A model generated the notes under the pieces. That model was not told where the DNA came from. It saw nothing but the letters and a program-made list of their open reading frames with translations, and ran no database searches. Of a stretch of 64,000 nt of DNA, positions 112 to 45,677 are shown in pieces. This DNA is from an uncultured bacterium (GTDB taxonomy: Bacteria; Planctomycetota; UBA1135): assembly GCA_937919925.1 (NCBI GenBank), contig CALFOT010000056.1, forward strand, positions 1 through 64,000, read 5' to 3'. Positions within the stretch are counted from its first letter, which is position 1. Every line of letters starts with the position of its first letter. The translations under genes and the position numbers were made by a program.

Positions 112-1656
112 CTAGCGAGCTCCCAGGACTCTGGAATAGCGGTAGTAAACCTCCATCATTAAGGTGCAGATGGCCGTGGAGTAGACGCGGCCACCCTCTT
201 CTCCCCACGGACCGGCAGGATTCCACGAGCCGTAGAAGTTGTCTTTGGGGTTCTCGCGCCGTTGGTTCGGAAGCAAAGCGGCCTCAATCGCGTTCTGCCA
301 GTTTTTCCAATGCTTGCCGCCCCATTGGTTCATGGCGAAGGTTCCGTAGTACCAATAGTACAAATCAATGGAGCCATCGTTTTCATCCCAACGTGGAGGT
401 TTGGAAGCAATCAAATCAGCCTGCTTCTTCAGCATGGCGTAGTTCGGGTGATCGCTCCAACGTTTCACTTTGGCGCTATCCGTCATGAAGATGCGCGACA
501 GCAACGCAACAGCCGTGAGCGATTCGGAGTGGTAGGCGGGGAACTTTTCGATGTAGTTGGATGGGCGCGAAGGCAAAGAGCCCACACCACCACCATCACC
601 GCCCCAGGTATAACCAACCCGTCCGGTATTTTTGTCTTGCATCGAATCGAACCAAATTTCAGCGCCGTCGAATGCGCCTTTGTCGATGGCGATGCCGGTT
701 TCCTGCGCAGTCTTCAGCGCAAAAACCATCCAACCGGTAATCGAGGAATCACTGTCGCCATTCGGCTCCAATTCGTAGCGCCAAGCACCGTATGGATTAC
801 GCGCACGCACCAGCACATTGACCGCTTTCGTCATCGGCCTCTTGAGCATCGGCGCCTGCCCCGAGAAGTAGTAGGCTTCGCCCAGAGCCATGGTGGCAAT
901 CGCTTGGTTGTACAGCGTGGAGTTACCAGCTTCCTCACCGAACAGGCCACGATCTTGTTGCACATCGAGTAGCCAAGTGATTCCGTCGCGCACCACAGCT
1001 TGGTGCGCACCACTATTCAAAGTGTGGTTGTTACCAAGGAAGGCGAGCAGCGCAAGCCCAGTTAGGCCGACGTCATTGACGGGGTTGCCCGCGCCGTCGC
1101 TCGCTGCTTGATCAGCAAAGAGATCGTGGTGCATGAACCCATCCGCATCCCAAAAGCCACCCGGCGATTGATGGTCTTTGAGCCACTGCAAGCCACCTGC
1201 AACTGCGGCTTCGGTGGGTGAGGCGCCTCCTGCACCACCCGGGCCCCCACGGCTGCCCTGGTTGCCGCCGGCGCCGCCACCAAGGCCAACAACACCATTC
1301 CACTCGTGTGCTTCCAAAGGCTCCTTGGCCGTCATCTCTGGATCGCCGTCGTCTTCCAGCGTTGGTGATGGCTCCTCCGTTTCCACTGGAATATCGTTCA
1401 CAACGGGTTCCGGAATCAGCGGAGTTTCCACAATGGGTTCGACAATAGGATCCTCTTCTATCACCGGTGGCGGCTCGGCAGCGGCTGCAACGAATTGCGG
1501 CGGTGGCGTTTCTTGTTTCGCGGTGAGCACCAAAATGCCCATAACGAATAGGCCGATGAGAAAGTGCAAAAAGAGTGATGCGATTAAGTAAGGCGCGCGT
1601 TGTAGCTGCTCACCGAGGACTTCATTGAATGAGTGTTCTTCCATCGTGTCTTGCAT
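112..1656 (-). CDS. TonB-like membrane protein with prenyltransferase/squalene-oxidase-type repeats (copy 2)
   Basis: A cytoplasmic N-terminus is followed by one membrane helix (about residues 22-45), a Pro/Glu-rich stretch, a Gly-rich linker and a C-terminal alpha/alpha-toroid domain. The toroid begins near residue 150 with a QW-type motif (QSPGGFW). The front half resembles TonB/TolA-type envelope-spanning proteins; the toroid resembles squalene cyclase and prenyltransferase folds. No enzymatic role is proven. It is a close paralogue of the gene just upstream (1742-3325), and most toroid residues match by eye. The frame stays open upstream, but an ATG at 1710 lies in the loop of a terminator hairpin. 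I therefore prefer ATG 1656, or 1644, although neither has a clear ribosome binding site. Function unknown; envelope location inferred. Confidence 0.8.
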   Translation of the reverse strand: MQDTMEEHSFNEVLGEQLQRAPYLIASLFLHFLIGLFVMGILVLTAKQETPPPQFVAAAAEPPPVIEEDPIVEPIVETPLIPEPVVNDIPVETEEPSPTLEDDGDPEMTAKEPLEAHEWNGVVGLGGGAGGNQGSRGGPGGAGGASPTEAAVAGGLQWLKDHQSPGGFWDADGFMHHDLFADQAASDGAGNPVNDVGLTGLALLAFLGNNHTLNSGAHQAVVRDGITWLLDVQQDRGLFGEEAGNSTLYNQAIATMALGEAYYFSGQAPMLKRPMTKAVNVLVRARNPYGAWRYELEPNGDSDSSITGWMVFALKTAQETGIAIDKGAFDGAEIWFDSMQDKNTGRVGYTWGGDGGGVGSLPSRPSNYIEKFPAYHSESLTAVALLSRIFMTDSAKVKRWSDHPNYAMLKKQADLIASKPPRWDENDGSIDLYYWYYGTFAMNQWGGKHWKNWQNAIEAALLPNQRRENPKDNFYGSWNPAGPWGEEGGRVYSTAICTLMMEVYYRYSRVLGAR

Positions 1657-1689
1657 AACGTGACAATCGGTTGGCCGGTTCGATGAAAT

Positions 1690-1720
1690 AAAAAAAGGGA
1701 GATGACGCATGTCATCTCCC
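1690..1720 (-). terminator. Intrinsic terminator between the two toroid-protein genes
   Basis: Read on the minus strand, a perfect 10-bp stem (GGGAGATGAC paired with GTCATCTCCC) closes a 4-nt ATGC loop and runs straight into seven T residues. It starts 22 nt after the stop codon of the upstream gene. It should end most transcripts of that gene before the second copy. The loop contains an ATG with an AGGGAG-like sequence in the stem, which could mislead start-site prediction. Confidence 0.85.
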
Positions 1721-1741
1721 TGAAAGTAGAGAATGATTTCT

Positions 1742-3325
1742 CTAGCGAGCGCCGAGCACTTGAGCGTAACGGTAATACACTTCAAGCATCAGTGCACAGA
1801 TTGCAGTCGAATAAACACGACCGCCTTCATCGCCCCACGGGCCCGCCGGATCCCAAGAACCGAAGAAGTTGTCTTCGGCATCTTCACGCCGTTGGCTAGG
1901 AATCAAAGCAGTTTCAATCGCTTTCTTCCAATCCTTCCATTGGCTGCCGCCCCACTGGTTCATGGCGAAGGTGCCGTAGTACCAGTAGTACATATCAATC
2001 GAGCCATCGTTTTCATCCCAGCGCGGAGGCTTGGAAGAAATCAAATCGGCCTGCTTTTTCAGCATGTCGTAGTTCGGGTGATCCGACCATTTCTTGACCT
2101 TGTCATGATCGGTCATGAAGATGCGTGAGAGCAAAGCCACGGCGGTCAAAGACTCCGACTTTTCAGCCGGGAACTTGTCGAGGTACTGGGGTGGACGCGA
2201 AGGCAGCGAACCAGGTCCGCCACCGCCTTCACCCCAGGCATAACCAACACGACCGGTGTTTTTGTCTTGCATCGAATCGAACCAAACTTCCGCGCCATCA
2301 AAAGCGCCCTTATCGATTGCGATCTTGTTGTCTTCTGCAGTCTTCAGAGCGAAGACCATCCAGCCAGTGATGGAGGAGTCGCTGTCGCCGTTTGGCTCCA
2401 AGTCGTAGCGCCAGGCACCATAGGGATTACGTGCATTCACAATCACGTTGACGGCCTTCGTCATGGGCTTCTTGAACAGTGGCGACTGACCAGAGAAGTA
2501 GTAGGCTTCGCCTAAGGCCATGGTGGCAATCGACTGGTTGTATAGCGTGGAATTGCCGGCCTCATCGCCGAACAGACCACTATCTTGCTGTACATCGGTG
2601 AGCCAAGTAATCCCGTCTTTTACGACATTCTTATAGGTACCTTTGGTCAGCGTGTGGTTGTTCCCAAGGAAGGCCAGCAGCGCCAGACCAGTAAGGCCGA
2701 CGTCGTTGACCGGGTTGCCCGCGCCAGTGCTTGGCTCCTTGTCTTCATAGATGTCGTTGTACATGAACTGGTCTGCATCCCAGAAACCGCCAGGCGACTG
2801 GTGATCTTTGAGCCACTTCAGCGCATCGAGCACCGCTTTTTCCTGCGCAGTGCCCCCTTTACCGCCACCACGGCCTCCACGGCCACCGTATTTACCACCG
2901 GCACCGCCACCCAGGCCAACATCGTTGTTCCAGGCGTCGGAATCGAAAGCGGCATCCGCATTCATGTCCGGATCGCCGGTTTCTTCCAGGGTTTCCTGTT
3001 CGACAACCTCTTCGAGTTCCGTTTCCTGAATCACTGGCTCCTCGATGATTTCCTCAACGACTTCCTCGATGATTTCCTCCTCTTCTTCCACCTCAGGAGG
3101 TGGTTCTGCCTGCGCCGCAACAAACTGCGGCACTTCATGCTTGTTACTGCCCTTCAAAATCATGATGCCCGCCACGATTAAGAAAATCAGGGCGTGCAGG
3201 GCAATGGAGGCAATCACGTAAGGAGCACGGCGGAGCTGCTCGGCGAGCACATCGTTGAAGGAGGTTTCATGCTCCCACGGGCGGTGGTACTCGTAATCGG
3301 TGTAATCGTTTTGGAATTCAGTCAT
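1742..3325 (-). CDS. TonB-like membrane protein with prenyltransferase/squalene-oxidase-type repeats (copy 1)
   Basis: The predicted protein has 527 residues. One membrane helix lies at about 36-57. A very acidic Glu/Pro-rich stretch follows at about 71-117, then a Gly-rich linker at 137-158, then an alpha/alpha-toroid domain from about 165 to the end, with a QW motif at Q176-W182. A conserved GDSDSS segment is shared with the neighbouring copy. Such proteins are common in planctomycete-like genomes but have no settled function. ATG 3325 is chosen because AGGGAG lies 4 nt upstream; a longer frame adds ten residues without support. The TM-linker-domain order suggests inner-membrane anchoring with the toroid in the periplasm (inference). 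Confidence 0.83.
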   Translation of the reverse strand: MTEFQNDYTDYEYHRPWEHETSFNDVLAEQLRRAPYVIASIALHALIFLIVAGIMILKGSNKHEVPQFVAAQAEPPPEVEEEEEIIEEVVEEIIEEPVIQETELEEVVEQETLEETGDPDMNADAAFDSDAWNNDVGLGGGAGGKYGGRGGRGGGKGGTAQEKAVLDALKWLKDHQSPGGFWDADQFMYNDIYEDKEPSTGAGNPVNDVGLTGLALLAFLGNNHTLTKGTYKNVVKDGITWLTDVQQDSGLFGDEAGNSTLYNQSIATMALGEAYYFSGQSPLFKKPMTKAVNVIVNARNPYGAWRYDLEPNGDSDSSITGWMVFALKTAEDNKIAIDKGAFDGAEVWFDSMQDKNTGRVGYAWGEGGGGPGSLPSRPPQYLDKFPAEKSESLTAVALLSRIFMTDHDKVKKWSDHPNYDMLKKQADLISSKPPRWDENDGSIDMYYWYYGTFAMNQWGGSQWKDWKKAIETALIPSQRREDAEDNFFGSWDPAGPWGDEGGRVYSTAICALMLEVYYRYAQVLGAR

Positions 3326-3388: not shown

Positions 3389-4411
3389 CTAGAAGGATTC
3401 TTGGTCGGGCTTTTCGCCAAAGACTCCGTCAAGGTTCTCGCGCAGCCCGCGTAGCTCCGGAGAAAACCACGAATAGGAGCTGAGATACATTGCGGAAAGT
3501 TCCGCCCTTACGGAAGAGTTTTGAGCTTCCATCCTAAGATCATTCAATATAAGCAGTTGCGCTTCTTGAAAACTAAACTCGCGGCTTGGGGAACGTTTGG
3601 TGACGAGCACCAGCTGAAGGACGCCTGAAACACTGTTGGTGAGCTCCATGCAGTCGCCCGGGGCGGCAGTCTCCAAGAAATTCTTCAGGTTTTCTTTGGC
3701 GCCGGCCCTGATTTCGGTGAATAAGCTGACGCTATCGGCTTTCGCCAGCGCCTCAGGGATGCTCATGGTGTGTTTGCCAAGGCGGCTGAGCGTTTCCGCA
3801 GCGCGGTCGGCGGCGGGGGCAGTGGCTGGGTCATTGAGGAATTTCAGCGCCGCCCACTCAAATTCAGCAGGGCGTTGGCGGTAAATCTCGTTGTCCTGGT
3901 AAGCCGCACGTATTTGTGCTGGCGATGGATCGGAAATCGCGCGCTTGCCATCATTCGGCGACGGAATGGTGCCGCTGACGATGCCCGCCACGGTCCCTTC
4001 AATAAATTGGTGACGCAAGGCTTTCTGGAAATCCTCAATGCTGTGGTAGCCATCGCGCTTGACCTTATCCAAAAACCGCTGGCGTGAGCCATCTTCAAGA
4101 ATCAACGCTTGGATTCTCGCCTCGACTTGGGGATCCAGCATACTTTCATCGAGGCCCAGGCGGAGGAAGCTCTCACGATAGAGAATGCGGCGAATCGCTA
4201 TATTCAGCGCCTCTGGGCCGGCCTCCTCGATGGTGACATCGGCATTTGAGTTCATGATGCGCACGGCAATATCCTCAACCATCGAGCCGGTGAGGATTTG
4301 GTCATTGATGATGACCAAAATTTGATCCACGCTGGAATCATCGGAGCCTTGCGCGCAAACAGCGCTGCTGCCCATTGCGGAAAGTAGAAGTGCGAGTAGA
4401 AATGTTTTCAC
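3389..4411 (-). CDS. SurA-like periplasmic chaperone / peptidyl-prolyl isomerase-type protein
   Basis: The predicted protein has 340 residues with a signal peptide (hydrophobic core at about 4-18, likely cut after the VCA tripeptide near residue 20). A SurA_N-like chaperone region follows: a 'VNDxIL'-type start (ILVIINDQILTG), then helices rich in Glu, Arg and Leu. A possible degenerate parvulin-like segment lies in the C-terminal half. It would help outer-membrane proteins fold in the periplasm. The start is GTG 4411, whose last bases form the TGA stop of mfd (GTGA overlap), so the two are probably translationally coupled. The frame is open further upstream inside mfd, but that stretch carries no signal peptide. 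The family call rests on N-terminal pattern and context; the isomerase domain is not certain. Confidence 0.65.
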   Translation of the reverse strand: MKTFLLALLLSAMGSSAVCAQGSDDSSVDQILVIINDQILTGSMVEDIAVRIMNSNADVTIEEAGPEALNIAIRRILYRESFLRLGLDESMLDPQVEARIQALILEDGSRQRFLDKVKRDGYHSIEDFQKALRHQFIEGTVAGIVSGTIPSPNDGKRAISDPSPAQIRAAYQDNEIYRQRPAEFEWAALKFLNDPATAPAADRAAETLSRLGKHTMSIPEALAKADSVSLFTEIRAGAKENLKNFLETAAPGDCMELTNSVSGVLQLVLVTKRSPSREFSFQEAQLLILNDLRMEAQNSSVRAELSAMYLSSYSWFSPELRGLRENLDGVFGEKPDQESF

Positions 4412-7400
4412 TTGGATTTGCCTGGGGTGTATTTTCGCTGTTTCCGCGGCAAGGGGCAAGCGAGGGCTGTGGTGTAGACAAACTGAAGGACTTGCTCGGC
4501 GCTGGCAGCCGGATTCGGGAGCATCCAACGCGCTTTGCGGGCGGTCATGACCCGTAAATCCATGCCGCGACCATCCATTGCGGATACGAAAGTTCGTGCT
4601 TCACGCAAGGAGCAAGAGAGGTGGTCGTCCACTCGCTGCAGGCTATCCAGCCCAAGTAGGCCTAGACGGTGCTTCAAAAAGAACAGCTTGGCAAGATTAT
4701 GGAGCTCCTCGGGGGGTGGTCCGAAGCGGTCTCGGACAGCATCCAGTACCGCCGTGATTTGCTCAGGGGTGCGAATGCGATCCAGTTCCCGCAGCAACTG
4801 CAAGCGGGTTTCTTCCTCCGGCACAAACTCAGGGGAAAGCGCGGCGCTGAGACCGAGCGCCAAATCACACGCCGGTGGAATGCCGCTGGCAGCCACTTTG
4901 CCTTGGCGACGCATGCGGGTGACGGCTTCGCTCAGCAGGCGTCGGTAGGTTTCGTAGCCTACCGCATTGATGTGCCCGCTCTGTTCGGAGCCGAGCAAGT
5001 TGCCCGCGCCGCGGATTTCCAAATCTCGCACGGCGAGCTGAAAACCTGCACCAAGGTAGCGCATTTCTTCGATAGCCTTTAGCCGACGGCGCGCATCGAG
5101 AGGCAAGGGCTTACCGCGCGGAATCAGCAAGTAGCAGTAGCCGCGTTTTTCCGAGCGCCCTACCCGTCCGCGTAATTGGTGGAGATCAGAAAGTCCGTGG
5201 CGCTGTGCTTGGTCGACAAAAATCGTGTTGGCGTTGGGGATGTCGAGCCCGCTTTCAATGATCGTGGTGGCGACCAAAATATCGGCCTTGCCGGTGACAA
5301 AAGTGAGCATGGCTTTTTCGAGTTCACGCGGCTCCATCTGACCGTGGCCGACCACAATCCGTGCTTTCGGCACCAAGCGTCGAATTCGTTCAGCAGTTAA
5401 ATCCAGAGTCTTCACCCGATTGTGCAGGAAGAAGGCTTGGCCGCCGCGCGCTAGTTCCCGTTCGAGTGCATCTTGCAACAGCGCTTTTTCGTCGTCATAT
5501 CGTAGTTCCGTGTGCACTTCTTGGCGGCCGACTGGTGCAGTACTCAAAGAAGTGATGTCGCGAATGCCGGCCATCGCCATGTGCAAAGTACGCGGCACCG
5601 GGGTTGCAGTGAGCGTGAGGATGTCGACTTGCGCGCGTTTGCGTTTGAGCTCCTCTTTATGGCGCACGCCGAACCGTTGCTCTTCATCGATAATCACCAA
5701 GCCCAAGTTTTTGAACTTCACATCTTTTGATAACAGGCGGTGGGTGCCAATCACCAAATCAACGGTGCCACTTTCTAAACCCGCAAGGATTTCGCGCTTT
5801 TTGATTGGCTTCACCAAACGCGATAGCACCTCGATGACTACCGGCCAATCGGCGAAGCGTTGACGAAAAGAACGTACATGTTGTTCGGCCAGCACCGTAG
5901 TTGGCACGAGCATAGCAACTTGTTTGCCGCCGAGCACCGCACGAAAAGCCGCGCGCGCAGCAAGTTCGGTTTTGCCATAACCCACATCGCCACAGAGCAA
6001 CCGATCCATCGCGCGCGGCAAAGAAAGATCGGCATGAATTTCCACCATGCCTTGCGCTTGATCCGGCGTATCCTCCCAAGGAAAAGAGGCCTCAAACTCG
6101 CGTTGCTCTTCGCCGCCATCCGGGAAGGCGAAGCCAGGCACCGCTTCGCGCTCGGCTTGGATCTCAAGCATCTCCGCCGCCAAATCTTCGACCGCCGATT
6201 CCACCCTGAGACGACGCTTCGCAAAAGAACCCGAGCCGAGCCGATCCAGTTGGTGATTGGCGCCACCGGCACCAATAAAGCGCTCGACTAAATCCACCCG
6301 CGAGACGGGCACCTTCAGTTCCACAGCATCTTTAAATTCGAGCAGAATAAAATCCTGCGCAGCTTGGCTTTCCGCTCGATCCAACCCGCGAAAAAGCGCC
6401 AAGCCATGTACTGCGTGCACCACCAAGTCGCCTGGCTTGAGCGCCATGATCGTTTCAATCGGCGCCGTGGCATGATCACGCCGACGCCTTGGCTTCGGCC
6501 GATGGGCCCCGTGCCCAGGAATGAATTCGCGATGGTGGATGACGGTCAGCCGCGCTTCCGGAATGCGAAAGCCGCGCTCTAGTCCGCCCGCTTGTAGTTT
6601 CAGCAGGTGTTTTTCTTGACCGCTATCGTGCAGGATTTGCTGGAGGCGATCGGCTTCTGCATCGTTGGAGCACAACACGATTGCATGTTCACCCATGGCG
6701 GCGCGTTCGGCCAAAGCCCCGACACCGGGCGCCACTCCTTGGCAATATTCTTCCACACTGAGTGTGGTGAGCGTGCCATCTTCACCCGGCAAAGTGGCGA
6801 GCTCCAACACCGGGTGCTTGGTGCATAGGCGATCGAAGCGGTTAAGTGCGGCCACGGCAGCGGGGCCGAGGAAGCGCAATTGCTTGCGGCGGTCGTCGAT
6901 GGCGGCGGGTTCCCAAAACACCACGCGCGTATTGGCGGGGAAACGTTCCAGTGGCAACAGGTCGCTGGCGTCGGCAGCTTCTTTGAGGTCTTGTGCGAGC
7001 GGCACGGAAACCTTGCGCAACACATGGCGGGTGCGCTGGGTGGCTAGATCAAAAACGCGGATGCTTTCGAGTTCGTCATCGAAGAATTCCAGGCGCAGGG
7101 GCTCGCCAATCGCGGGGGCAAAAAAATCCAGAATATCGCCCCGCCGCGAAAACTCTCCTGCAGCGGAAATGGCCGGAACACGCTCGAATCCGGCATCTAC
7201 AAGGACTTTGGTCAGATGCTCCGGATCGAGCTTGGTTTTTTCAGAGAGTTCCAAAATTCCGCTGGCATCCTGTTCGGATGGGCAAGGTACTGGCTGAATC
7301 AGGGCAGCGAGCGGCGCGACCACGATGCCGCCGTAGCCTTCGCGCTCAATCAACATCAGTGCGTGATGACGTTCGCGCAGAACTTCCGCTTCCGCACCGA

Positions 7401-7716
7401 GCGAACTTTCGCGCGCCGGAAACGGGGTTGCGCCGGCACCAAAAACAATTAAATCGTCTACCGCGAGTTCGGCGGCGGCGGCATCGGCCGTGACCACCAA
7501 CAGTGGACCTTCTTGTTCCGCGTTTAACGCTGCGCTCATCAGCGCTTTCGCCGAGCCCCACAAGCCTCCCCAATGCAAACGCAAATCCGCCTGGCTGCTC
7601 CATTGGGCGGCCAGGTCGTGAAAGGATGGGGTGGCGCGCAGCAGCGCGACGGGTGCAAGATCTTCCGCAGAAGAACGTTTCCCGGCGCCGCCCCGCGAAG
7701 GTGGACGCGTCGCCAT
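4408..7716 (-). CDS. mfd: Transcription-repair coupling factor Mfd
   Basis: The protein has 1102 residues, close to the usual 1150 for Mfd. Mfd removes RNA polymerase stalled at DNA lesions and recruits UvrA. Visible parts: a UvrB-homology N-terminal region, a CarD-like RNA-polymerase-interaction domain starting with the 'LKPGDLVVHAVHGLALF' segment, the superfamily 2 helicase Walker A (GDVGYGKT, Lys582), a DEEQ motif II, the 'TLTATPVPRTLHMAM' motif III region, motif VI 'QLRGRVGRS', and a C-terminal TRCF domain. The start ATG 7716 has no strong ribosome binding site. The gene follows a small DCC-family gene by about 11 nt and overlaps the SurA-like gene by 4 nt. Confidence 0.97.
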   Translation of the reverse strand: MATRPPSRGGAGKRSSAEDLAPVALLRATPSFHDLAAQWSSQADLRLHWGGLWGSAKALMSAALNAEQEGPLLVVTADAAAAELAVDDLIVFGAGATPFPARESSLGAEAEVLRERHHALMLIEREGYGGIVVAPLAALIQPVPCPSEQDASGILELSEKTKLDPEHLTKVLVDAGFERVPAISAAGEFSRRGDILDFFAPAIGEPLRLEFFDDELESIRVFDLATQRTRHVLRKVSVPLAQDLKEAADASDLLPLERFPANTRVVFWEPAAIDDRRKQLRFLGPAAVAALNRFDRLCTKHPVLELATLPGEDGTLTTLSVEEYCQGVAPGVGALAERAAMGEHAIVLCSNDAEADRLQQILHDSGQEKHLLKLQAGGLERGFRIPEARLTVIHHREFIPGHGAHRPKPRRRRDHATAPIETIMALKPGDLVVHAVHGLALFRGLDRAESQAAQDFILLEFKDAVELKVPVSRVDLVERFIGAGGANHQLDRLGSGSFAKRRLRVESAVEDLAAEMLEIQAEREAVPGFAFPDGGEEQREFEASFPWEDTPDQAQGMVEIHADLSLPRAMDRLLCGDVGYGKTELAARAAFRAVLGGKQVAMLVPTTVLAEQHVRSFRQRFADWPVVIEVLSRLVKPIKKREILAGLESGTVDLVIGTHRLLSKDVKFKNLGLVIIDEEQRFGVRHKEELKRKRAQVDILTLTATPVPRTLHMAMAGIRDITSLSTAPVGRQEVHTELRYDDEKALLQDALERELARGGQAFFLHNRVKTLDLTAERIRRLVPKARIVVGHGQMEPRELEKAMLTFVTGKADILVATTIIESGLDIPNANTIFVDQAQRHGLSDLHQLRGRVGRSEKRGYCYLLIPRGKPLPLDARRRLKAIEEMRYLGAGFQLAVRDLEIRGAGNLLGSEQSGHINAVGYETYRRLLSEAVTRMRRQGKVAASGIPPACDLALGLSAALSPEFVPEEETRLQLLRELDRIRTPEQITAVLDAVRDRFGPPPEELHNLAKLFFLKHRLGLLGLDSLQRVDDHLSCSLREARTFVSAMDGRGMDLRVMTARKARWMLPNPAASAEQVLQFVYTTALACPLPRKQRKYTPGKSK

Positions 7717-42291: not shown

Positions 42292-43518
42292 TTAGGGATT
42301 GGCGTGGCGATCGAGTGCAACCGGTACCGCGAGGCCACTCACACCCGTGCCAGGATCACTGCTCAGCAACACCATGCGCGCCCCGTAGCCGCTAAGAAGA
42401 ATTTCATCCGTGTTGTTGCGCCCATCGATTTCCAACACGCTCAGCCAATGGCCGCGATCGCGGTCGGTGAAAAGCGTGGTTGTGGTCCATTTGCCGTTGT
42501 GCAGGGCGAGTTTTTCAACGCGTCCGCTGTAACCAAAAATGGCTACGGTCTCAATCGAAGGATCTGGATCGAATTGACCAACGACCAAACCGCGGGGGCC
42601 AAGTGGGCCCGCGTAAATGGTTTGGGTGTTCCATTTTTCCGCGACAAACTCATGGCGGAAAATACGCCCATTGTCACCCGTCGAATAAATCACCGGCCAA
42701 CCTCCAGTCTGCTGCTTGCTCACAGCAAGACGACCGCAACCGGCATCGTTTTGGTGAATGATTTGCCAATGTGGGCCATCGGCTTGCATTTGCAACAATG
42801 CCACTTTGCCATCACGGGATGCGGTCACAATCGTGTGTCCATCTGGCAGCACGATGGCATCGCGAATGCGGCCGGAAAGATCACTCAACCACTCCGTTTT
42901 AAAAGTGCCTCCGGCTTGTGGCGTGACACGATACAAAGCGCCCGGTCGGGTAAACACCAGCAGCTCGGCGCCGTCATGCGAAGGGTCTACATTGCCACCC
43001 ACGATGGTGTGGATTTCTTGGCCAGGGAAAGTGGCGATGCGGCGGCCATCGAGGCCACCATCGGCATAGGCACGCACTTGGTAAAGCACGCCCTTTTTGC
43101 CACCGACATACAACTCCTTGCCAGCGACCGCCGGATCGATGTCAGCGTGGGCAATGCCGCCGAGCCAGGCGCCATCGGCAAGCACGCGCACGGGAGTCCA
43201 TTTGCCGCTGTAAGAAACCATCACCCAGCAAGTGCCGTTGTCATCTAAGCCGACGACTTCCGGCGTGGCGTACTGCGGAAATATTTGCAGTGGCTCCATG
43301 CGCCAAATGCCGGTGGGTTGATTGTCGAGCACCAAACTGGCGCGCCAACCCGCAGCGGCGCCATCAAGTAGGACCAAACCTTTGGCCGGATCGCCGGAGC
43401 CAGTTGCTGCGGCAGTTTGCGGATGAGGGTGTGGCTTAGTTGCGGGGATGACGCATGAGGCGCACAGAAACACACCCATGACAGCGGCTTGAAAGAACGG
43501 CGAGGCGAAGTTTTTCAC
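42292..43518 (-). CDS. Secreted beta-propeller-like (VCBS/FG-GAP-type) protein
   Basis: A 408-residue protein starting at GTG 43518, which overlaps the receptor stop by GTGA. A hydrophobic signal (about 5-20) ends at a Cys at residue 22 that could be a lipoprotein site, although the -3 position is not canonical. Repeated blades such as 'IAHADIDPAVAGKELYVGGKKG', 'IVGGNVDPSHDGAELLVFT' and 'LVVGQFDPDPSIETVAIFGYSG' match FG-GAP/VCBS propeller repeats. Its coupling to a TonB-dependent receptor suggests a surface substrate-binding partner (inference). Confidence 0.75.
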   Translation of the reverse strand: MKNFASPFFQAAVMGVFLCASCVIPATKPHPHPQTAAATGSGDPAKGLVLLDGAAAGWRASLVLDNQPTGIWRMEPLQIFPQYATPEVVGLDDNGTCWVMVSYSGKWTPVRVLADGAWLGGIAHADIDPAVAGKELYVGGKKGVLYQVRAYADGGLDGRRIATFPGQEIHTIVGGNVDPSHDGAELLVFTRPGALYRVTPQAGGTFKTEWLSDLSGRIRDAIVLPDGHTIVTASRDGKVALLQMQADGPHWQIIHQNDAGCGRLAVSKQQTGGWPVIYSTGDNGRIFRHEFVAEKWNTQTIYAGPLGPRGLVVGQFDPDPSIETVAIFGYSGRVEKLALHNGKWTTTTLFTDRDRGHWLSVLEIDGRNNTDEILLSGYGARMVLLSSDPGTGVSGLAVPVALDRHANP

Positions 43519-45608
43519 AGGATTTCCAGCATGATGGAAGCGTAAGCTTGACGCGGCGCGCCGGCGACGAGCCCAGGACCGAAAAAGCCACCGCGTGAGT
43601 GTACATCCCATTCTTTATCAAAGAGGTTGGTAGCACCTACAGCAATTTGCAGCGTGATGCCGTCGGCAACTTGGTAATCATGGGCGATTTGGCCATCCCA
43701 CAGAGTGACCGCTTGATTCAAGCCAATGAGGCCATCGGCGCTTGCCGCTCGGGTGTTTGCTTCATCCGCAAAACTCTCGCCTACATGCACCCCGCCCATC
43801 GAAAAATAGTAGCCCGTAGGAAGAGAGTAAATGGCGCGCCAAGTCGCCTTGGTATCCCATGCGTAAGGCACATCATTACCTGCATCCACTCCCGTTTTCA
43901 GCTCCGCGTTTTGCAGCGTGAGGGAAGTGGTGAAGTGCAGGCCGTCTAGCGACCGAGCAATATGGCTCACATCGTAATCGACGCTAAGATCGATACCATT
44001 GGATTCGATTTTGCCGACGTTCTCATAAAACCCAGTATCAAATACAAGGTAGTCATCAAAATCCAAACGCCAGGCAGCCACACTGCCGGAGAAGCCGCCG
44101 AGATCGCGCAAACGTAGACCAGCTTCGGTAGAGCGTCCACTTTCAAATTTGAGAGCATCGGCAGGGTTGGCGGTGTAGGCAAACCCCCAAAACTGTGGCG
44201 CGCGGAATCCTTCGCCGTAGTTCATAAAGAGAGCGGCGTTTTCGCCGAGTTCATAGGAAAGGCCAAGCGCGGGCAGAACATCAAAGTACTGATCCTCGTA
44301 AGTGAAGCCACTGACAGAATCATTGCCGCTAGTAGAAGGAATCCATTCCATGCGCGCCCCGGCGGTCACGTTCAGGTTATCCGTTGGCGAGAAAGTGTCA
44401 TCCAAATGGGCGGATAACGACAGCATGCGGAAACTGGAATCTGTGGTTGGCACGAAGGACGTGCCGCCAAAGGAGGCGGTGCGGATGGAGTACGAAGGCA
44501 GCCACTCGCGGTGTGCCCGCATGCCGCCATGCAAAATGTGTTTGGTATCACCTAGGCGCACACCCTTTTCGCCGCGCACGCCGACGTTGGCGAAGTAAGT
44601 CTGATCGTGCCAATCATCCAGCACGCTCGACCCGCCTACGCCACTACGTGCATAGAGATTCCTTTCGGTCACGGAAGCAGCAGCAAAAGCTTCCACCCAG
44701 TCATCGCCGGAAGGCATATGCCAAACCATGTCGACCAAACCGCGGAACCCTTCAAAGCGGTTTTCCGGACGGCTGTTGGCCCAGCGGTTTGCGTTAAATT
44801 CTGCAACGGTGAGCCCGCCAGGAGCCGCGTGGTCATCATCAAAATAACTGAGTGAAGTAGCAAGCCACGAACCATCATCCATAGTTTGGCGTACTTCCGC
44901 ACTAAAATCCTTCTGGCTAAAATCACCGTCATCGCGATAACCATCACCGTGGCGGTCCAATAAGGAGAAGCGATATCCAGTGCCGTTGCTGGTAGTCGTG
45001 CCACCGGTGAGAAAACTGCTCGCAAAGCCCTGCGTGCCGAATGCTTGGCGCACTTCGAATTCGAGCTTCTCAGGAATCGGACGGGTCACGAAGTTGATGA
45101 CACCACCGACGGTGTTCGGGGAATAACGCACCGTGTGTCCACCACGGATACTATCGACGGCATACACACGTTCGGCAGCCAGTGGCATAAAAGAAAAAGC
45201 GGTCCAGCCATAAGGGCCGGCATTTGCGGGCACGCCATTGATCAAGACACTGATGTATTCGGTGAGGCCGTCATCAGGCAAACCGCGGGCGCTGAAACTT
45301 GGCGCAGATGCTTCGCCGCCGTTGTAGGGGCGCGTGGCCACTGTGGGCAAGTGCTGCACGAGATCGTTCAAGTCTCGTGCACCAATGGCACGTATCGTTT
45401 CGGGGCTGAGAATATCGCGCGAGCCTGGGAAGTTGAGGGGCACGACCGGCACCCCATCCGATTGGACACGTCCAATCACCAGGATTTCATCGGCGATGGG
45501 GATTTCTTTTTGAGACTTGTTCTCTTCTTGCTGTGCAAAAGTGTTGCTAGCAAGAATCAAAGTAACAGGTAGGGCGAACAGAAAAGTTCTGAGGGAGCAA
45601 TCAGACAT
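43515..45608 (-). CDS. TonB-dependent outer-membrane receptor (FecA-like)
   Basis: A 697-residue receptor with a signal peptide (1-26, cut near 'NTFA'). A TonB-box-like 'DEILVIG' follows at about 40-46, then a plug with 'LVQHLPTVATRPYNGG', 'FSARGLPDDGLTEYISVLINGVPA' and 'IRGGHTVRYSPNTVGGVINFVTRPIPE', then the 22-strand barrel. The plug motifs resemble FecA-type iron-citrate receptors, but the ligand is unproven. ATG 45608 is preferred, as the frame upstream lacks a signal. A promoter with an overlapping inverted repeat lies about 75-100 nt upstream. Confidence 0.92.
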   Translation of the reverse strand: MSDCSLRTFLFALPVTLILASNTFAQQEENKSQKEIPIADEILVIGRVQSDGVPVVPLNFPGSRDILSPETIRAIGARDLNDLVQHLPTVATRPYNGGEASAPSFSARGLPDDGLTEYISVLINGVPANAGPYGWTAFSFMPLAAERVYAVDSIRGGHTVRYSPNTVGGVINFVTRPIPEKLEFEVRQAFGTQGFASSFLTGGTTTSNGTGYRFSLLDRHGDGYRDDGDFSQKDFSAEVRQTMDDGSWLATSLSYFDDDHAAPGGLTVAEFNANRWANSRPENRFEGFRGLVDMVWHMPSGDDWVEAFAAASVTERNLYARSGVGGSSVLDDWHDQTYFANVGVRGEKGVRLGDTKHILHGGMRAHREWLPSYSIRTASFGGTSFVPTTDSSFRMLSLSAHLDDTFSPTDNLNVTAGARMEWIPSTSGNDSVSGFTYEDQYFDVLPALGLSYELGENAALFMNYGEGFRAPQFWGFAYTANPADALKFESGRSTEAGLRLRDLGGFSGSVAAWRLDFDDYLVFDTGFYENVGKIESNGIDLSVDYDVSHIARSLDGLHFTTSLTLQNAELKTGVDAGNDVPYAWDTKATWRAIYSLPTGYYFSMGGVHVGESFADEANTRAASADGLIGLNQAVTLWDGQIAHDYQVADGITLQIAVGATNLFDKEWDVHSRGGFFGPGLVAGAPRQAYASIMLEIL

Positions 45609-45677
45609 GCGGTGCTTTGAGCAAGCGGCGTGCCAACTTTCCAGCGAATGGGGTATCAATTTTTGTTCCGCAGCCGG

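Follow-up and report, generated by a model that had tools for sequence, protein, structure and literature searches.

Background

Motors of the ExbB/TolQ type classically transmit their force through TonB and TolA. Heads of another kind, von Willebrand factor A (vWA) domains, were proposed for these motors in 2025: passages of Williams-Jones et al. (PMC12204202) describe vWA-headed transducers with an SHLS helix from Planctomycetes-Verrucomicrobia-Chlamydiae (PVC) bacteria, encoded beside tetratricopeptide repeat (TPR), tolQ-like and paired tolR-like genes, with a domain II of ~100 residues. Here, two tandem genes, A and B, are analyzed that lie at the beginning of a 64,000-nucleotide stretch of DNA (the window; the start of contig CALFOT010000056.1, or C56) from an uncultured planctomycete of the UBA1135 lineage, whose assembly (GCA_937919925.1) comprises 2.9 Mb and is 87.4% complete. 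Both products join a TonB/TolA-like front to a toroid of the squalene-cyclase type. At a probability of about 0.77, they are inner-membrane force transducers of the TonB/TolA kind, driven by the proton-motive force, in which the toroid serves as the binding output head.

Like TonB and TolA, A and B are predicted from sequence to have type II inner-membrane topology, carry a Ser-x3-His pair and an extended spacer, and have relatives clustered with ExbB/ExbD genes; unlike them, they lack TonB_C, do not retain the second half of the SHLS motif and end in a toroid head. With the vWA transducers, as passages of PMC12204202 present them, they share a transmembrane (TM) helix with a docking His, a disordered or proline-rich spacer of ~100 residues, and a globular C-terminal domain unrelated to TonB, whereas their head is a toroid and the gene in the window genome is not beside a motor. 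Squalene-hopene cyclase (SHC) and single-barrel class II terpene cyclases resemble A and B in their alpha/alpha barrel and in detectable sequence homology, but differ in that DXDD is not conserved in the toroids and that A and B possess a TonB-like front. The toroid proteins are thus best filed among motor-driven transducers, as proteins that would work like TonB without being TonB by their C-terminal domain. Searches of openly licensed PMC papers showed no toroid-headed transducer in the titles and abstracts listed, and the word squalene is absent from the main text of PMC12204202.

A conserved gene pair in Planctomycetota

Genes A (1742..3325; 527 amino acids, P0002) and B (112..1656; 514 amino acids) lie on the minus strand, as do all window features given below, and end close to the contig edge. 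In both, a cytoplasmic tail is followed by a TM helix, a spacer, a Gly-rich module and a C-terminal toroid, as seen in a 25-row alignment. The proteins are 71% identical overall (genome search); by region, identity is 79% in the toroid, 61% in the TM helix, 58% in the Gly linker, 46% in the spacer and 44% in the tail. At the codon level they differ at 51.7% of third positions and 15.0% of second positions. A and B are a genuine gene pair and not chance open reading frames (ORFs), since third-position differences exceed second-position ones and all 101 genomes of the order (the window's own, G000, included) yield matches at E<=0.001. Among sampled Planctomycetota, 252 of 294 genomes match at E<=1e-20; both genome tallies pool toroids with and without a TM front. 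The best 79 loci of a named-genome scan bear the titles Planctomycetota, Planctomycetes or plain bacterium, and include Poly30, Pla86 and UBA1135. (Genomes are labeled G; loci, i.e., fetched neighborhoods, are labeled L.) Of the 20 loci first fetched in the window's order, 15 hold at least two TM-type toroids, and the pairs often cluster by locus on the tree; tandem duplication therefore recurs.

The TonB/TolA-like front

The TM helix of A spans residues 35-57 (3155..3223) and contains Ser40 and His44; in that of B (1525..1593), the Ser-x3-His pair reads SLFLH, the borders of both helices having been set by eye. Among window ORFs of at least 100 amino acids, only A and B show the strict hydrophobic [S/A]xxxH pattern within their first 200 residues. 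A was aligned with 123 relatives (124 rows). Of the 119 rows with a residue at the position of His44, 115 have His; the position of Ser40 holds Ser in 110 rows and Ala in 8, again out of 119, and the remaining TM columns are chiefly hydrophobic. A TM front is present in 199 of 211 distinct near-complete toroid ORFs, and 196 of these 199 carry [S/A]xxxH (SxxxH in 187, AxxxH in 9); the three without either pattern belong to L271, L258 (which has a signal-like leader) and L117 (an extra copy). As a control, the same pattern was sought in 804 further ORFs whose TM window is comparable; it was found in 40, and these include TonB_C proteins and truncated toroid proteins. Chance composition as the source of the TonB-like front is ruled out by this control together with the conservation of length described below, and the view that the likeness of the front to TonB/TolA goes beyond mere composition is supported. 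The near-invariant Ser-x3-His pair and the clustering of homologues with ExbB/ExbD in 11 genomes bear out what the sequence-only reading had said of this front. Where a D-box-like strand was looked for after the helix (pattern as given in passages of PMC10907165), short hydrophobic stretches ahead of PPP were noted by eye only. Passages of PMC12204202 ascribe motor binding by E. coli TonB and TolA to an SHLS motif of the TM helix.

The 12 toroid ORFs without a TM front comprise six from cut-off loci and six with a short leader only. A soluble cytoplasmic enzyme is ruled out for the family by these counts, and an envelope location of A and B fits their predicted topology. Short-leader toroid proteins without a TonB-like front are encoded in L058 (6313-7386), L046 (9183-10343) and L261 (9970-11130) and are probably exported.

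Spacer and Gly-rich module

In A, an acidic, proline-containing spacer (residues 58-126; 2948..3154) leads to the Gly-rich module (residues 127-157; 2855..2947), which reads WNNxVGLGGGAGGKYGGRGGRGG. The proline- and acid-rich spacer of B lies at 1336..1524, and its module, a weaker match, at 1231..1335; the spacers were delimited by alignment and length count, the module of A by alignment and pattern search, and that of B by pattern search. From the end of the TM helix to the toroid, 195 proteins measure 101.5 +/- 7.1 residues, with a mean D+E content of 26% and a median net charge of -21 over this stretch. Spacer sequence is thus variable while its length is nearly constant, which lends no support to the earlier proposal that the differing spacers of A and B give the toroid a variable reach.

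A strict pattern also places the Gly-rich module in a YfbK-like vWA protein (G032) and in A2M-like proteins (G000, G007); looser forms occur in G011 (A2M) and G012 (vWA). The occurrence of the module in three unrelated families suggests a putative shared partner. The loci holding it outside toroid proteins are L059, L213, L215, L219 and L224.

The toroid head

The toroid of A occupies residues 158-527 (1745..2854; delimited by model, fold match and profile) and that of B 115..1230 (by alignment with A). Modeling on 79 sequences (the window and loci from the named-genome scan) gives an alpha/alpha barrel with high confidence (pLDDT 94.8, pTM 0.93). Foldseek ranks AprG, GH76 and other barrels at the top and SHC ninth; sugar enzymes with the same barrel and the thioester-containing domain (TED) chains of complement C3/C5 are among the matches. 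When the Foldseek hits were aligned with VIA-align, the best chain was squalene-hopene cyclase 2sqc (Z 26.5, rmsd 3.0, 287 aligned residues, 18% identity). A search of the family profile against PDB sequences returned SHC at E 3e-11 and the thioester protein TEP1 at 0.0011; a single-sequence PDB search was set aside because its top matches fell on the low-complexity part. Pfam SQHop_cyclase_C scores just under its gathering threshold of 26.1 (25.1 for A and 22.6 for B), and it is the only family listed for either protein up to E 1, with no TonB_C or TolA C-terminal domain. Nor was a vWA C-terminal domain found in the toroid proteins by Pfam, model or fold match.

The two motifs sought in the toroids were DXDD, the acid motif of class II cyclases, and C[GA]EQ, the thioester motif. 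DxDD is not conserved: it occurs in 12 of 79 toroids, and in nine of these it lies inside a WDxDD repeat close to the N-terminus. None of the 79 has C[GA]EQ. Hence the squalene-cyclase type holds for the fold of the toroid and not for the catalytic motif, and the term "lipid-cyclase-like", which the sequence-only reading had used, has to be limited to the fold.

A total of 38 polar or aromatic positions are conserved in 95% of rows or more. Of these, 19 fall near the N-ends of alternate helices (114 of 373 residues; permutation p 0.006), compared with seven near the N-ends of the other helices (107 residues; p 0.96). This clustering can be read as a putative ligand cavity at one mouth of the toroid ring.

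Motor genes in the window genome and in relatives

A single ExbB match and two ExbD matches were found in the window genome, and all three belong to one operon on contig C10 (L057) that includes no TonB gene. Its order is a secretin-domain protein, a 944-aa protein, a 359-aa protein, ExbB, ExbD, ExbD and a second secretin-domain protein. ExbB-ExbD-ExbD operons often carry secretin-domain genes.

In 11 genomes from eight families, a toroid gene shares a single co-directional cluster with ExbB and ExbD genes (L269, L271, L277, L309-L314, L316 and L326); two of these genomes, G051 and G031, belong to the window's own order. In particular, L269 (G157), L277 (G207) and L271 (G137) encode, in the same direction, a toroid protein, a TPR protein of ~965 aa, a protein of ~375 aa, ExbB, ExbD and ExbD. 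ExbB of the window genome is 33% identical to that of L269 (7e-38) and 30% identical to that of L271 (1e-31). The earlier suggestion that ExbB/ExbD partners be looked for thus had a divided outcome: none lay in the 20 neighborhoods first fetched in the order, a single set was found elsewhere in the window genome, and direct clustering appeared in other genomes. Two motor-clustered toroids lack the docking His: L326 (6104-8056) has Asn, and L271 (6955-8697) has neither residue. Asn may be able to replace the docking His in TonB; a literature search found no paper on this.

A profile of the three linked-locus TPR proteins matched 58 of 294 genomes, among them G048, G045 and G010 of the window's order; in G048 the match falls in the ORF that lies upstream of ExbB in L187. 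Twenty places in 19 genomes, mostly around strong matches, were fetched from the TPR matches listed; this sample is biased. Toroid genes occur in 11 of these places (L309-L317, L321, L326), and in eight of them the cluster includes ExbB and ExbD (L309-L314, L316, L326); secretin-type genes occur in another eight (L318, L319, L322-L325, L327, L328). No place has both, and L320 has neither. The ExbB/ExbD genes precede the toroid gene in L309, L311 and L316. L310 (G312) carries toroid and TPR genes twice in succession, with one ExbB and three ExbD ORFs in the fetched stretch.

A tree of 112 toroids was built (quick method, midpoint root), with 18 rows labeled as linked, including four loci in which the toroid gene is beside TPR with no ExbB in the stretch. 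These rows require 3 changes, against 16 on average after shuffling, and two of the three linked groups are placed among mfd-linked rows. G034, G261 and G156 share the layout of the window genome, with a toroid gene beside mfd (L051, L258, L294) and a secretin-type motor cluster elsewhere (L327, L323, L328).

Proposed mechanism and alternative explanations

If A and B are force transducers, the TM helix would dock on an ExbB-type ring via its Ser40/His44 face, and proton flow through ExbB/ExbD would move the helix. The spacer of nearly fixed length would transmit the pull across the periplasm to the toroid, which would act as a binding head and not as a cyclase and grip a partner further out. 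The window copies would use the single ExbB-ExbD-ExbD set detected in their genome. Candidate partners are the secretin and TPR proteins encoded with the motor, the clients of the SurA-like protein encoded next to A, and the A2M-like and vWA proteins sharing the Gly-rich module. A broader proposal is more tentative and is judged about twice as likely to be wrong as right: that Planctomycetota possess a widespread, undescribed trans-envelope machine driven by the proton-motive force, in which the SHC-type toroid is a mechanical gripper, toroid and secretin genes interchange at the motor operon, and the Gly-rich module marks common clients (A2M-like and YfbK-like vWA proteins).

Several observations weigh against a motor-driven role. 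Neither the window genome nor the 20 neighborhoods first fetched in its order have motor genes beside the toroid genes; without selection by TPR, linkage was seen in 3 of 60 neighborhoods fetched around toroids, and eight of the 11 linked loci stem from the TPR-profile sample, which is biased because it was built on linked loci. The TPR match between the operons is weak by BLAST (1.7e-4 and 0.11), and the TPR profile gave no match in the window genome. Within the 11 linked genomes, the helix residue is His in nine, Asn in G031 and neither in G137. The second half of SHLS is not conserved (Leu in 60 of 124 rows at column 51; Pro in 84 of 124 at column 55, with Ser outside the eight commonest residues), the spacing of the Leu and the second Ser being that of E. 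coli TonB. Moreover, G001 and G005 each have one ExbB and one TonB_C match, so that a single motor may serve both TonB_C and toroid transducers.

An alternative is a static periplasmic binding or scaffold protein anchored in the inner membrane and without a motor, e.g., a helper of the neighboring SurA-like protein, whose Ser-His pair would serve helix packing. The adjacent SurA-like gene and the mfd neighborhood of 28 of 71 loci, where motor genes are absent, speak for such a protein; [S/A]xxxH in 196 of 199 proteins and the co-directional ExbB/ExbD/TPR clusters of 11 genomes speak against it and make it unlikely, though it is the strongest competitor of the transducer. Far less probable is a toroid enzyme, whether a class II terpene or squalene cyclase or one of another kind, that the front merely tethers to the membrane: among solved folds SHC comes closest, and it is also a sequence relative, a conserved aromatic-rich set lies near one barrel mouth and sugar enzymes share the barrel, but the scarcity of DxDD (12 of 79, nine in the WDxDD repeat) argues against a cyclase, if not against other chemistry. 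The complement and TEP1 matches, together with the Gly-rich module common to A2M-like proteins, would also be expected of an A2M/complement-like thioester toroid that traps its targets covalently; with C[GA]EQ in 0 of 79 toroids, this is highly improbable.

Should the force-transducer reading be true, the presence of toroid matches in most sampled Planctomycetota would mean that motor heads are exchanged more freely than thought, and planctomycetes would gain a concrete, testable envelope machine, possibly a so far undescribed mode of exerting force on the envelope. It also suggests that many proteins whose sole family match is a weak squalene-cyclase hit may be transducers and not hopanoid enzymes.

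TonB_C and TonB-dependent receptors

TonB_C was not found in the window genome, which at 87.4% completeness is weak evidence of absence; 93 of 101 genomes of the order have a TonB_C gene. In G001 and G005, these genes adjoin ORFs resembling TonB-dependent receptors (the receptor of G001 and the TonB_C of G005 were confirmed). The window genome retains three TonB-dependent receptor matches, and one receptor gene lies in the window at 43518-45659 (PF00593 at 3e-32, and PF07715). The idea that the toroid is the only TonB of this genome is weakened by the TonB_C genes of the order, their position beside receptors and the three receptor matches.

Start of gene B and neighboring genes

An intrinsic terminator separates A and B (1690..1721; 11-pair stem, T tract, minimum free energy -19.4 kcal/mol, z -7.4). 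The reading frame of B extends upstream to ATG 1710 (1710-112, 532 aa, P0001) and further to TTG 1785. Since ATG 1710 sits within the terminator hairpin, ATG 1656 is more likely to be the start and was chosen here. Given this strong terminator, B may be transcribed separately from A or at a lower level.

Upstream of A lies the SurA-like gene (3389..4528, the extent of the ORF; start unset). Its protein has no Pfam match of its own; its counterparts in L040 and L289 match SurA_N and rotamase, and the window protein finds the L289 counterpart at 5e-6. Next to it is an mfd-like gene (4408..7716), presumptively named from its sequence; the neighbor names mfd, def and ribF are all presumptive. Homologues of the mfd-like gene lie close to toroid genes in 28 of the 71 toroid-holding loci examined.

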